A DNA stretch of 44,598 bases from assembly GCA_016936175.1 (NCBI GenBank), contig JAFGPN010000006.1, forward strand, positions 1 through 44,598, given 5' to 3'. The first letter of the stretch is position 1; each line of letters starts with the position of its first letter. This DNA is from Patescibacteria group bacterium (lineage in GTDB: Bacteria > Patescibacteriota > Kazan-3B-28 > UBA10110). This document shows, piece by piece, positions 48 to 19,851 of the stretch. The notes beneath the pieces were generated by a model that had not been told where the DNA came from, did no database searches, and saw nothing but the letters and a program-made list of their open reading frames with translations. Position numbers and translations under genes: made by a program.

Positions 48-1637
48 ATGTTCAACGAAGCCAAATCAGGTAATTTCAATACCTCTGAAGAGAGTCTGTA
101 TTCTGATACCACCGAAAAAAATCCAGTAGCACTAGAAGCAGAATTGTTAGCGAATGTTTCTGATGCAAGAAGGACAGAAATTGAAAGATATGGCAGAGCC
201 GAAACCTTTTCCCAAATAGCTGAATATTTAGAGGGTGACAGGAGAATTGCATTTGCGTTGGTTAATTACGCACCTGCCGTTCTTGATGACGATATCGACG
301 CAAGTGGGAATAAACAACGGCTGTTAGCTGCTCGAACAATTTTACGCGATAGCTTTCAGGGTGATTATTGTAGTGAATCGACTCCAGAGCTTTGGGAAAA
401 ACAAATCGCTGAATTGGGAGGAGTTTTAGCTAGGTTGCATCAAGATGGATTTGATGGAGCCGAAAAAGTTCTGGGTGAAGTTAACAATTTTTGGATTATT
501 GAGGGGTACAACCTAGATCGACGGGAGAAGGTGTTAGATGCCGAAGAACTTGATGAATTGAATATGAATATCGGTAAGTCTGTCGGATTGCAGTTCTTGC
601 ATCTGTTAGCACCTGAATTGGACGAAGAATCCAAAATAGCCATTGCCGAGTCTTATGGTCTGGCAATCAAATTGGCCGATAATCTCTCGGATTTGAATGA
701 AGATTTGGAGGCGGGTTTCGTTAATATATCACGGGAAGATTTAGAAAAATATAACCTAGACGCCACAGAGTTAAGCGAGCAGAATTTGCGACCCTATCTG
801 AAAACAGAGCTTGAAAAGATTAATAAACATTATGATGCAAGCGATGAATGTTTGGACAAGACAATAAAGCAATGTCCAGATGCTACCCAAGCGTTGATGT
901 TATTTAAACAGATTGCTCATTCATGGTTAACCCAAGTCAGAGAAAAATACGAGCAGTTTGAAGATGACCAGCCCGAAACCCCCAAGTACGATTATTACGC
1001 GTTTTATTTACACTTAATTGAACATCCGCTACCACGAATGGCGGAATATTTTGAAGAAAACTACAAATATCTAACTAAATTAGTCGGGTTCGAAAGCACC
1101 TCTATTGATGTCGGTTGCGGTAGCGGCCATGTAACGCAACAGGTGGCTCCAAGTGTCCGCAGAGCCATCGCTATAGATCATGACCCGAGAATGATTCAGC
1201 TAGCAAAGGAAAGGTTAAGGGACCAACGAAATACCGAAATAGTCAGAGGTGAGTTTCTGGAAATGGACCTGCCCAAGATGTCTGATTTGACTTTCGCCTC
1301 CTTTAATATTGTTGGCTCTCCTGACGTTGCTTCAGAGGATAGGACAAAGTTCCTTCAGAAGATGATTGATTGTACAAAGTCGGGCGGACATGTGGTCGCC
1401 GATTTTTGGAGCGATAGTGGCATTGAGTTTGCCAGAGAATTCTACATCCAAAGTGGCTCAGAAAGGGTTGAGATAGTTGGCAATGATGTTATAGCTACCG
1501 ATGCGAACGGCATTGCTCGTCATGTCCCGCGTTGGAGTCGGGAAGAAATAGAACAACTCGCAAGTCAGGTCTCAGACAATTTTCAGATTGTAGATCTAGG
1601 CGGCATATTCTACGCCCTAGATATTACTGTAGAATAA
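48..1637 (+). CDS. Squalene/phytoene synthase-like domain fused to a SAM methyltransferase
   Basis: This looks like a two-domain protein of about 529 residues. Numbering below is from the TTG at 30, and the ATG at 48 is residue 7. Residues about 40-300 resemble the all-helical head-to-head prenyl synthases (squalene/phytoene synthase family). There is an aspartate-rich DDDID at 86-90 where the first substrate-binding motif belongs, and DNLSDLNED at 217-225 followed by a GFVNISREDLEKY stretch, matching the family's second motif. From about 320 to the end there is a class I methyltransferase, with glycine-rich motif IDVGCGSGH at 359-367 and an acidic AIDHD at 381-385. A stop at 24-26 in frame excludes an upstream start. 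The family normally condenses two prenyl diphosphates; both aspartate motifs are present, so activity is plausible. Product and methyl acceptor are unknown. The fusion is clear as one open frame; the first-domain assignment is good but made by eye. Confidence 0.72.
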   Translation: MFNEAKSGNFNTSEESLYSDTTEKNPVALEAELLANVSDARRTEIERYGRAETFSQIAEYLEGDRRIAFALVNYAPAVLDDDIDASGNKQRLLAARTILRDSFQGDYCSESTPELWEKQIAELGGVLARLHQDGFDGAEKVLGEVNNFWIIEGYNLDRREKVLDAEELDELNMNIGKSVGLQFLHLLAPELDEESKIAIAESYGLAIKLADNLSDLNEDLEAGFVNISREDLEKYNLDATELSEQNLRPYLKTELEKINKHYDASDECLDKTIKQCPDATQALMLFKQIAHSWLTQVREKYEQFEDDQPETPKYDYYAFYLHLIEHPLPRMAEYFEENYKYLTKLVGFESTSIDVGCGSGHVTQQVAPSVRRAIAIDHDPRMIQLAKERLRDQRNTEIVRGEFLEMDLPKMSDLTFASFNIVGSPDVASEDRTKFLQKMIDCTKSGGHVVADFWSDSGIEFAREFYIQSGSERVEIVGNDVIATDANGIARHVPRWSREEIEQLASQVSDNFQIVDLGGIFYALDITVE

Positions 1638-5094: not shown

Positions 5095-6498
5095 TCAAAT
5101 TTTCCTCCTTTGGGGGTGGTACTGAACCACTATGGCCTGCCATCCTTCACAGACGCCGCGCTCCGCGAGGAGCGCGTAAGGCGAATTCCAGTCCCAGAGC
5201 ACTTTCCGCGAATTCAAACTCAGGTTCGAGCCAACCTCCGCGACAAAGTCGCGTAGTTTCAAGAGATCACCCCCCGCAGCCGGGAGACTACGCTCCCTGA
5301 CTGCGTTTATCAAGTCCCGCAAAGGTTCGAGCCAAGCAAAAGGCCCCTCATGCGAAACCAGCTTCAAGCGCGCTTCGAGCGCGATCTTTTCATTCACCAG
5401 CTGCCGCTTGCGGGCGGAGTACTCCGCCCGATCTAATTCACCATCAAGATGCAAGTCAGTAAGCCTGCGCAGCTTCGCTGCGATCTTTTCAACCTCAAGA
5501 CGCAGGTCTACAACCTGCGAAGCTTCATTGGCCGCTTCTTCAACTTCCCAGCGCTGGACTTGCTCAAGCATTTTATCCGCCCAGTCTTCGGGGATGGCAA
5601 GCTGGCGAATACCAGACACAAGCTCCTCGGTCAGCTCCGCTTCGCGGATGTACGGCTGATGGCAGATCATCTCGCCGCTCTTCTTAGTGCAGCGGTAGTA
5701 GCGCCAGGATTGCGAGTTGCCGTTCTTATAACGCTTGGTATGAGTCTCGGCAGTGATGGCTCCGCCGCATTCGGCACAGCGCAGCAGTCCCAGGAACGGG
5801 AACTCGTACTTGAATTTAGCCTGTGCGCGACCGCGCGACTTGTAGACACGCTGAACCTTGTTCCACAACTCACGGCTAACGGCGGGCTGGTGTACGCCCT
5901 CGTACAACTCGCCAGCTCAGATGAAAGCTCCGTAGTAAATCGGGTCGGTCAGCAGGCGCGCGATTTGGGACTTCGCCAGCTTTTTGCCGGACTCGTTCTT
6001 CAAGCCAAGCTCAAAGGTCAGGTCTGACATATCGGCCAGTCCCCAGCGGTTCGAGGCGTAAAGCTCAAACGCCTTCTTGATTAACGGGAACATCTCTGGA
6101 TCAGGGACAATCTCATGTGTACGCGGGTGGTTGAGGTAGCCGATCTTTGCTCGGCCTGGGAAGATTCCCTTATTCGCCTTGCTCCGCATACCACGGATGA
6201 CGACCTCGCTTAAGTTGTCCACGTAATGCTTGCTCTGCGCGAAGAAGAAGGCCAGCATAAACTTGTCCGTACTGGTGTTGCGGAAGGCGCTGGTCGCAGT
6301 CACGATCAGGCGCAGCTTGCCGCTGTCCAACAGGTCAATGATTCTCGCTCCTTCGAGCGCATTGCGCGCCAAGCGTGATGCGTCGTAAGCAATGAGGGCA
6401 TTTGCCTTGCCTGCGTCGATGGCTTCAATAACCTGCTGGAACACAGGGCGTCCTGGCGTGCGTGCGCTTCGGCTTTCTTCAAAGTGCAGCGGTTGGTT
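5095..6498 (-). pseudogene. Large serine recombinase, truncated and interrupted by TGA
   Basis: One continuous frame from 6498 down to 5095 except for a TGA at 5917-5919. It encodes most of a large serine recombinase. The distal catalytic domain has FEESRSARTPGRPVFQQ, then ALIAYDASRLARN. The recombinase domain runs PGRAKIGYLNHPRTHEI to LLTDPIYYGAFI. After the stop follow AGELYEGVHQPAVS, a zinc-ribbon (LRCAECGG ... YRCTKKSGEMICHQP) and a coiled coil. In relatives the position of the TGA usually holds an aromatic residue in a GxFxWxGxLYxGxHxP pattern, so a Trp codon mutated to TGA is likely. The N-terminal segment with the catalytic serine is absent: a TAA at 6499-6501 precedes the homologous part. 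Base composition is clearly GC-richer than the neighbours, indicating transfer. It cannot make an active recombinase. Confidence 0.85.
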
Positions 6499-6824: not shown

Positions 6825-6884
6825 AACTTCCTCCCTCCGGGCTGGAGCCTCTGGGCAGGAAGCCACCACGATAGTCTGCCAATT
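6825..6884. repeat. Short intergenic repeat, copy 2, with hairpin insert
   Basis: AACTTCCTCC and, after an inserted hairpin-forming segment, ACCACGATAGTCTGCCA match the copy at 1656-1681. The insert contains GGCTGGAGCC, and CTTCC pairs with GGAAG at its edges. It lies between the gene fragment and the 3' end of the patatin-like gene. Confidence 0.35.
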
Positions 6885-7803
6885 ATTTAATAAATCTCAG
6901 TATTTTTTGGGCTACCTTTTTCCCCAACTGGTAGTATTTTTTTAGATGTTTTTGATTAGTCGATAACAAAAAAGCTTGCTTGTCGTCCGGTGTATTAATA
7001 AGCAATACGCGTTTGGTTTTTAAGGCTAAGGCAAACTCCTGACGAATAACACTCTCACGTTTACTCAAACACGCAAGAATTGGGCCTTTGCACATCGGTT
7101 GAGCAAACACTCCTTCTAACCAACTCTGCACATGATAGACCCATCGCCGGGTCAACGGTACATTCATCGCCACGACTATCTTGTCTTTGGGATATTTTTT
7201 TAACAGATATTTTAAGTTGATTGGCGTTACGATATAGCCATCGGCATAGTTTTTGCCGTGAATGTTTTGGGTATGCGAGTAGTAAGGGATTACGCTGACC
7301 GAGGCCTTAAGAGTTTCCGATACCGCTCGCTTGCTCCCTAGATGGTCCACTCGTACATACCCAGTTTCGCAAGTATCGGTGTTAAGTAGTTGAGTATAGA
7401 AAGGAACAGGGCTATGTCGGAGTGCTGCCATATCCAAATACTTTCTTTTGCCTTCCAGCACTCGCCATAGGTAATCTATGTCCACCACGTTTGCGAGATG
7501 GGAGCGATCGGCTGACCCGAGGTGACGACCCCACTGATGCCTTGCGAAGCTCCGCCACACATTATATGGTCGGATAAATCTGCCAGCGGTTAAATCTTCC
7601 CAGTAGATTGTAGAACCCGATTTGGTGTTTTTGGTCAAAAAATACGCGGCATTCAAGACCCCGGCCGATGCCGCATACACCGCCTTGATCCTTTTGTATA
7701 CATCTGCCTTTTCCAGGGCAGTCACGATGCCAGCGCCAAACACGCCAGCCATGGCTCCGCCCCCTAAATATAAGATGAATTTTTGTTTTTTGTCTTTATC
7801 CAT
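6883..7803 (-). CDS. Patatin-like phospholipase family protein
   Basis: A 306-residue protein of the patatin family (serine lipid acyl hydrolases). The oxyanion-hole loop is LGGGAMAGVFGAGIVTALE at about 13-31. The nucleophile elbow is AASAG with Ser46, where the usual first glycine of GxSxG is alanine. The catalytic aspartate is in YADGYIVTP (Asp188). The Ser-Asp dyad is therefore complete and activity is plausible; the lipid substrate is unknown. There is no signal peptide, so it is probably cytoplasmic or peripheral at the membrane. A near-perfect promoter lies directly upstream, with the -10 box only six bases before the ATG. Confidence 0.8.
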   Translation of the reverse strand: MDKDKKQKFILYLGGGAMAGVFGAGIVTALEKADVYKRIKAVYAASAGVLNAAYFLTKNTKSGSTIYWEDLTAGRFIRPYNVWRSFARHQWGRHLGSADRSHLANVVDIDYLWRVLEGKRKYLDMAALRHSPVPFYTQLLNTDTCETGYVRVDHLGSKRAVSETLKASVSVIPYYSHTQNIHGKNYADGYIVTPINLKYLLKKYPKDKIVVAMNVPLTRRWVYHVQSWLEGVFAQPMCKGPILACLSKRESVIRQEFALALKTKRVLLINTPDDKQAFLLSTNQKHLKKYYQLGKKVAQKILRFIK

Positions 7804-18711: not shown

Positions 18712-19851
18712 ATGTCTATCGTAAACATCGTTGCTGCAACCGTAGCCGTAGCTAGGGAGTCTATGGTCCTTCGGGGTCGTCCGGCCGTGTGGTCGGAGAA
18801 GGACGAAACTCCCCACGAAGGGGAGACGGCCGTGTCGTTTTTGGCTCGGCTGGCCTTTGCGGCCTTTGCGGCCGCACTGGAAAACGATCTCGACGGGGGG
18901 GGATTCTGTGCTTGTAGCCGTCCGATATTCGTTTCGGACGGTACGTCCGCCCGGCTCGACCTGTCTCCCAACTCAAGGAGGATCGAGTTGGTCTTGCAGG
19001 CGGAGCCCAGTCGAGGTCCCAAGAGCGGTTTCTTGGGCTGGGCAGCAGTGCCTAGTCCCATGTATGTGGATGATGGCTGGTCTTTACAGATCAACCAGCA
19101 GGCGCTGTCCCTGCTGATTAGCGCCTGCTGGCAGGGTCGGGTGATCCTGCCACAGGACCACGAACGCCAGATGGCATTCATCGCTGGACTCACGCAAACC
19201 AGCGACTATGCTGGCTTACGCCAGCTACTGGTCGCCGACAACAGCTACATGGTCGCTGACACTGACAGCTTCAACTTCGAAGTCGCACTCGGTCGTCTGG
19301 TGGCCGAGTATGATGGCGCCGATCATGGCGCCGATGGCATTGCCTATCTTGCGGGCATGCCGGCACCAGCCGGCATCGCCGACCAAACGCCGGAGCGGCT
19401 TCTGCCGTTCCTTCCCGAGGCGGTCGAGGCTGCTGTTCTCGATGGGACGCTCTCGACCGCCACCGTCGATGAGCACATCGCTCGTCGGCGACAGGCCGAT
19501 CTCCAGCGTGAGCTGGAGGCGATCTACTCCGACCACCACCACACCTCTGCCTACCTGCAGAGGACCTTCCTCGGCCGACTGGCCGATGCGATTCGGGGTT
19601 ACGACCCCGACCTCCGGATCGTAGCTGGGGGCGAGCCCAGCTACGCAGACGGGAAATGGATCCTCGATCTGAAGGTCGAAGATACCTCGGGGGCTAACCC
19701 TCCGGAGCCACTATCCGAGTGGCTGCTGTTCGGTGGGAATGTCCACCCGCCGCTATCGGCTCTATCTGCCGAGTGGTGGGCCGGCCACCAGGTTGCTTAT
19801 GACCTGGACAACACTTGGCGTGTTCTCGCTAAGGCCAGCAAGGAGGCCTGA
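18712..19851 (+). CDS. Unrecognised GC-rich 379-residue protein
   Basis: I do not recognise this protein. It has no signal peptide or membrane segment. It is rich in Ala, Leu, Asp and Glu, with a helical middle (TPERLLPFLPEAVEAAVLDGTL ... ARRRQADLQRELEAIYSD at about 225-280) and a beta-like C-terminal part (GKWILDLKVEDTSG at about 325-338). Codon use is strikingly GC-rich compared with flanking genes, and a long opposite-strand frame overlaps it as a by-product. It has its own promoter, three-hairpin leader, Shine-Dalgarno and terminator, and lies between near-identical 42-base direct repeats. Together these mark it as a self-contained acquired module placed upstream of the pheS region. Confidence 0.7.
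   Translation: MSIVNIVAATVAVARESMVLRGRPAVWSEKDETPHEGETAVSFLARLAFAAFAAALENDLDGGGFCACSRPIFVSDGTSARLDLSPNSRRIELVLQAEPSRGPKSGFLGWAAVPSPMYVDDGWSLQINQQALSLLISACWQGRVILPQDHERQMAFIAGLTQTSDYAGLRQLLVADNSYMVADTDSFNFEVALGRLVAEYDGADHGADGIAYLAGMPAPAGIADQTPERLLPFLPEAVEAAVLDGTLSTATVDEHIARRRQADLQRELEAIYSDHHHTSAYLQRTFLGRLADAIRGYDPDLRIVAGGEPSYADGKWILDLKVEDTSGANPPEPLSEWLLFGGNVHPPLSALSAEWWAGHQVAYDLDNTWRVLAKASKEA

Follow-up and report, generated by a model that had tools for sequence, protein, structure and literature searches.

A gene at the start of the analysed DNA (the window, 44,598 nucleotides) encodes a protein in which a squalene/phytoene-synthase-like (SQS-like) domain is joined, in one reading frame, to a SAM-dependent methyltransferase. 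The SQS-like domain retains the metal ligands of head-to-head prenyl synthases and has lost the remaining conserved active-site residues, a pattern that, judged from the sequence, points to metal-dependent diphosphate binding with changed chemistry. The reading we favour, with a probability of roughly 0.42, is a two-domain enzyme that would carry out Mg-dependent prenyl-diphosphate chemistry other than head-to-head coupling and methylate the product or substrate within the same chain.

Gene and domain architecture

The host, a Kazan-division bacterium of the candidate phyla radiation, is represented by a metagenome-assembled genome of 670,276 bases in 18 contigs, approximately 90% complete. 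The contig begins 47 bases before the ATG of the fusion gene, and the gene is nevertheless complete, because an in-frame TGA at 24–26 precedes the open frame. A TTG at 30, six codons before the ATG at 48, is an alternative start. The features of the gene are as follows, with residues numbered from the ATG.

48–1637, + strand: complete fusion gene, 529 amino acids, open reading frame from the ATG at 48
201–986, + strand: SQS_PSY-like domain, residues 52–313 (Pfam PF00494, E 9.1e-13)
276–278, + strand: Ala77, at the position of the catalytic Arg45 of CrtM (alignment)
285–299, + strand: first Asp motif, DDDID, residues 80–84 (alignment)
678–704, + strand: second Asp motif, DNLSDLNED, residues 211–219 (alignment)
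717–740, + strand: G-F-V-N-I-S-R-E, residues 223–230, in place of the canonical G-R-I-Y-x-P (alignment)
960–995, + strand: linker, approximately residues 305–316 (alignment; the stand-alone homologue P0002 stops where the linker starts)
996–1634, + strand: class I SAM-dependent methyltransferase domain, approximately residues 317–529 (Pfam; relative G018)
1107–1127, + strand: methyltransferase motif I, DVGCGSG, residues 354–360 (aligned with solved methyltransferases)

At 48.9 bits (cut-off 26), the PF00494 match places the protein in the SQS_PSY superfamily, and it is the sole SQS_PSY gene detected in this genome by a genome-wide profile search (E 8.6e-14). None of the NCBIfam synthase equivalog models comes near its cut-off (HpnD, the best, 41.3 against 278.6 bits; PhytoSynCyanob, 18.2 against 550). 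The C-terminal half combines a Methyltransf_25 match above cut-off (E 1.6e-12, residues 354–447) with the glycine-rich motif I, and is an ordinary class I methyltransferase. Its relative in G018 matches at 24% over residues 319–520, and an IEHPxP segment at its N-terminus recurs in a methyltransferase that stands free in another patescibacterium (L004). A match to the MADS defence methyltransferase (PADLOC mad2, E 1e-15) was rejected, as it covers only profile positions 231–400 of 492, the generic methyltransferase part. The preliminary description had proposed a fusion of these two domains with both Asp motifs and a complete motif I, and all of these are borne out; the residues it gave for the Asp motifs, 86–90 and 217–225, denote the same motifs, because their numbering started at the TTG at 30 and so runs six residues ahead.

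Active site of the SQS-like domain

The domain was compared with CrtM, with 21 canonical patescibacterial SQS_PSY proteins and with its homologue in a sister species, which together with the fusion protein makes up the pair referred to here as the Kazan proteins. Four metal-type aspartates (D80, D84, D215 and D219) do not vary between the two Kazan proteins or across the 21 canonical sequences, which preserves the four-Asp, two-motif arrangement of functional head-to-head synthases. The conserved Tyr, Arg, Gln, Asn and Arg and the GRxY signature that such synthases also carry are absent: relative to CrtM, Tyr41 is replaced by N73, Arg45 by A77, Gln165 by K208, Asn168 by D211 and Arg171 by S214, and within GRxYxP the Arg, Tyr and Pro are replaced by F224, N226 and S228. 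At each of these eight positions, 20 or 21 of the 21 canonical sequences have the canonical residue. The CrtM alignment runs without gaps around the first motif, so that the assignment of A77 to the Arg45 position is independent of any doubtful gap. Inhibitor docking in CrtM lists Arg45, Asp48, Asp52, Gln165, Asn168 and Asp172 among the contacts (PMC8944557).

The sister protein carries identical replacements at all eight positions, except for Tyr in place of Phe224, and the local identity of the two Kazan proteins is 65–75% around the Asp motifs compared with approximately 52–53% overall. With CrtM/CrtB and HpnC/HpnD (PF00494) the Kazan domain has in common the fold and both DxxxD metal-binding motifs, and differs from them in the replacement of Arg45, Gln165, Asn168, Arg171 and GRxYxP, in the canonical C-terminal signature, which is not recognisable, and in the fused methyltransferase.

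Predicted fold and structural neighbours

A full-length AlphaFold2 model built from the two-sequence alignment was too poor for use (pLDDT 44). The SQS-like domain alone, modelled from the same two sequences, is all-helical, with a pLDDT of 62.6 (near 50 at the second Asp motif) and a pTM of 0.58. The best 42 Foldseek matches of this model comprise only carbazole prenyltransferases and synthases of squalene or dehydrosqualene, with probabilities of approximately 1.0, TM scores of approximately 0.5 and E values of 2e-3 to 3e-2. On realignment with VIA-align, the top places go to CrtM-type structures at a Z of 12.4 across 244 residues, a value that does not amount to strong support because helical proteins reach middling Z by chance; the first 38 matches are SQS-like chains, followed by terpene synthases near Z 9. 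With moderate confidence, the model thus indicates an all-α isoprenoid-synthase fold. Failure to adopt this fold had been named beforehand as an observation that would overturn the assignment, and the model, whose best structural neighbours are squalene and dehydrosqualene synthases, gives no such result.

Among the matches are the carbazole prenyltransferase structures 7vws (Z 11.2) and 7vwt (Z 10.9). The phytoene-synthase-like enzymes NzsG, CqsB4 and LvqB4 have an SQS-like fold and both Asp motifs, as does the Kazan domain, and illustrate that this fold is able to prenylate other acceptors (PMC7466098). Carbazole prenyltransferases also appear among the profile matches of the divergent SQS-like proteins described below; the two-sequence Kazan profile has no direct sequence match to CqsB4 or LvqB4, and there is no carbazole cluster at the Kazan fusion gene. 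The profile weakly matches YisP (E 0.008), an SQS-like farnesyl diphosphate phosphatase of Bacillus subtilis that sets a precedent for changed chemistry in such a protein (PMC10148934) and that, unlike the Kazan fusion, stands alone without a methyltransferase.

Distribution and divergent relatives

The sister species, candidate division Kazan bacterium RIFCSPLOWO2_01_FULL_48_13 (G001), belongs to the same genus as the fusion host and encodes the SQS-like domain alone (319 amino acids, 52% identity over residues 28–299), with no counterpart of the fused methyltransferase detected in its genome; the fusion thus differs within one genus. The other methyltransferase-like match in the Kazan genomes was considered as a split partner and rejected, being an RsmA homologue in both. 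A radical-SAM gene (HemN/HemW-like) lies approximately 560 bp upstream in the sister species, and no counterpart is visible in the window because it starts at the contig end. The sister genome also encodes a second, divergent trans-prenyl synthase (L060, 1240–2316; PF00348, E 2e-23) that the fusion host genome does not show.

Within the class, the fusion host and its sister are the two of 9 genomes that have the SQS-like domain, and the two-sequence profile identified no further close relatives among 379 genomes of the phylum. Across approximately 750 sampled phylum genomes (these 379 and a second, partly overlapping sample of 373, for which the profile was broader), no further SQS–methyltransferase fusion turned up, the strong matches being of stand-alone length. 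The search for the same domain order that had been proposed thus returned this one case, and the fusion is apparently confined to one genome so far. Narrow peptide patterns, of a kind that would miss distant relatives, recovered only the Kazan sister from the genome collection; no relatives of the fusion were found in viral contigs, and tblastn against plasmids gave generic methyltransferase matches, none reaching 80% of the query. Head-to-head synthases had been described as unexpected in a reduced genome; PF00494 is present in 27 of the 379 sampled genomes, which makes such proteins uncommon, not exceptional.

Beyond the Kazan pair, a set of divergent patescibacterial SQS-like proteins gives weak Pfam matches, yet its members are related to each other. 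Seven are stand-alone proteins (G267, G644, G177, G392, G632, G143 and G399), one has the domain behind a patatin domain (G078, locus L055) and one has it followed by a second prenyl-synthase-like half (G250, locus L047). Most carry G-x-[IV]-N-[IVM]-[SP]-x-E at the site of the canonical GRxYxP, so that the N-I-S/P-x-E of the fusion protein is common to most of the set, and the G392 protein also has a D-N-L-S-D second motif, as in the fusion. The set retains the Arg before the first motif, which the Kazan proteins lack. Maximum-likelihood analysis places the 21 canonical sequences on a branch of their own (support 96/98), and the Kazan pair falls outside it on a very long branch, within or beside the divergent set (84/38, at a point where long branches meet). 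In G399 (L071, 1399–3539), a divergent SQS-like gene without GRxY shares 4 bases with the gene for a CrtI-like FAD enzyme (PF01593, E 1e-25), which suggests that GRxY loss alone does not end prenyl-synthase function.

Several of these patescibacterial frames have composite architectures of their own. At L055 133–1815, a patatin-like phospholipase domain (Pfam E 4e-12) and the divergent SQS-like domain share one 560-residue frame. The second half of the frame at L047 1288–2937 bears a QIADDVMDLEED motif and has no match in Pfam or NCBIfam; its similarity to the Kazan domain is limited to the motif stretch, and the frame perhaps encodes a tandem prenyl-synthase-like protein. At L028 1432–3147 (G047), a canonical phytoene-synthase-type domain is followed in a 571-residue frame by a UbiA-like membrane prenyltransferase, the latter part assigned by eye.

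Metabolic setting and gene neighbourhood

The fusion host encodes a trans-prenyl diphosphate synthase beside UppS, in the order frr-uppS-IPPS-rseP (frr and rseP named by eye), and with both enzymes in one operon prenyl diphosphates should be available. The GHMP kinase family is needed by both the mevalonate and the MEP routes. No GHMP kinase was detected in four Kazan-family genomes (G000–G003; 14 of 14 controls positive), so that neither the mevalonate nor the MEP pathway is complete in them, and the cells probably obtain isopentenyl diphosphate from external sources. Three of the four have UppS and trans-prenyl synthase genes despite this. An amine-oxidase-type desaturase (PF01593: CrtI, CrtN, HpnE) was likewise not detected in the four genomes, again with all 14 controls positive; at a completeness of 88–98%, its absence from the fusion host is not proof. 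With neither GHMP kinase nor desaturase detected, these genomes are unlikely to support conventional carotenoid or hopanoid synthesis.

The fusion gene is not surrounded by a biosynthetic gene cluster. A free-standing patatin-like protein (6883–7803, − strand; Pfam E 5.9e-14) is encoded approximately 5 kb away, possibly by coincidence, though one other patescibacterium (G078) has a patatin fused to its SQS-like domain. Elsewhere in the window, a serine-recombinase-like gene (5095–6444, − strand; identified by eye) is split over two frames of 175 and 270 residues and is apparently broken, and a 379-residue frame (18712–19851, + strand), with long overlapping frames on both strands, falls in the 2-kb stretch of the window with the highest G+C content (54%, compared with approximately 47%).

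Proposed function and alternative explanations

In the proposed enzyme, the N-terminal half, with its squalene/phytoene-synthase fold and two retained Asp clusters, would bind an allylic prenyl diphosphate supplied by the cell's own trans-prenyl synthase via Mg2+ and ionise it. With the positions that hold the diphosphate and steer head-to-head coupling replaced, the carbocation may be used differently, whether passed on to a different acceptor (the course taken by the carbazole prenyltransferases), set free as a prenol (the course taken by YisP) or rearranged. The C-terminal domain would methylate the product or the substrate, with the fusion providing channelling. The SQS-like half would be able to act on its own, the state found in the sister species, and methylation may thus be a lineage-specific add-on. 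Consistent with this proposal are the junction of two complete domains at a domain boundary, the invariance of the four metal-type Asp residues, the nearest structures, all SQS, CrtM or carbazole prenyltransferases with terpene synthases at lower Z, the operon encoding trans-prenyl synthase and UppS, and the G399 protein, which lacks GRxY and sits in a prenyl-synthase-type operon with a CrtI-like gene. There are precedents both for SQS-like enzymes with chemistry other than head-to-head (PMC7466098, PMC10148934) and for SAM methylation in prenyl-diphosphate metabolism, namely the FPP C-methyltransferase of the pre-sodorifen pathway (PMC7862628), an enzyme in its own right with no SQS-like domain attached. 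Against the proposal, the replaced residues could equally mean that catalysis is lost, the fusion gene has no biosynthetic cluster around it and no GHMP kinase was found that would serve precursor supply. The methyltransferase is missing from the sister species and its closest matches are generic, so that its substrate cannot be read from homology.

Loss of catalysis is the core of one alternative, in which the SQS-like domain has been re-purposed to bind metal, a lipid or a partner, and a macromolecule or some other small molecule is the substrate of the methyltransferase. It is a possible reading, though a doubtful one. Eight near-invariant positions are replaced, including both Arg residues that precede the Asp motifs, and the same replacements occur in both species except at the one Phe/Tyr position. 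NDUFAF6, an SQS_PSY-family protein whose active site, too, is changed, acts in complex I assembly alongside the methyltransferases/hydroxylase NDUFAF5 and NDUFAF7, and thus exemplifies an SQS-like fold recruited into a process of methyltransferase-fold proteins (PMC12470011, PMC4938201, PMC3829151). NDUFAF6, however, is non-catalytic and loses its DxxxD motifs (PMC12470011), the opposite of the Kazan fusion, which keeps all four Asp and has an extra Asp (211) at a position occupied by a metal-side Asn in canonical enzymes; if there were no metal-dependent chemistry, the survival of precisely the metal ligands would be difficult to account for. A working head-to-head synthase of squalene, dehydrosqualene or phytoene type, with its C30/C40 product methylated by the fused domain, is improbable. 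Such an enzyme would agree with the significant SQS_PSY match across the whole domain, the fold match and the two Asp motifs, and squalene itself would require no desaturase; but the Kazan domain has lost the Arg, Tyr, Gln, Asn and GRxY positions that every or almost every canonical patescibacterial synthase retains, the equivalog models fall short, and PF01593 is missing from the four Kazan-family genomes when the controls all have it. Standard C30/C40 synthesis is therefore unlikely, and the methylated C30/C40 lipid of the preliminary description is not supported, given the replaced CrtM-type positions, the failure to find a desaturase or GHMP kinase, and a sister protein without methyltransferase; its other suggestion, re-purposing, fits the data better.

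Joining of unrelated genes by deletion or assembly error, leaving domains without a common function, would accord with the occurrence of the fusion in one genome only, the SQS-like domain alone in the sister species, the location at a contig end and the G+C content of the SQS part (41%, below that of the neighbouring genes and of its homologue, 49%). It is nonetheless quite unlikely. One frame stays open across both complete domains and the linker, the codon usage of each part fits the genome's genes best in this frame compared with the other two, and an assembly error would have had to strike in frame at the domain boundary. The fusion gene has a single full-length match in its own genome and, as far as sequence can tell, is a real gene.

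Implications

We found no described case in the literature of an SQS-fold domain and a SAM-methyltransferase in a single chain. Tentatively, the Kazan proteins and those with N-[IVM]-[SP]-x-E may belong to a group, or several groups, of class I isoprenoid synthases that have so far gone unrecognised, whose chemistry is not head-to-head, in bacteria that import isopentenyl diphosphate instead of producing it. Depending on the lineage, these proteins would be joined to various partners that modify lipids or terpenes (SAM-methyltransferase, patatin or a second prenyl-synthase-like half). That two species share almost all of the active-site replacements and both keep the metal site defines a compact set of residues. 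If active, the fusion protein would add a third case, after the carbazole prenyltransferases and YisP, in which the squalene-synthase fold has left head-to-head coupling, and one that sits in a cell where no route to isopentenyl diphosphate was detected; it would point to some CPR bacteria scavenging precursors and turning them into modified prenyl lipids.
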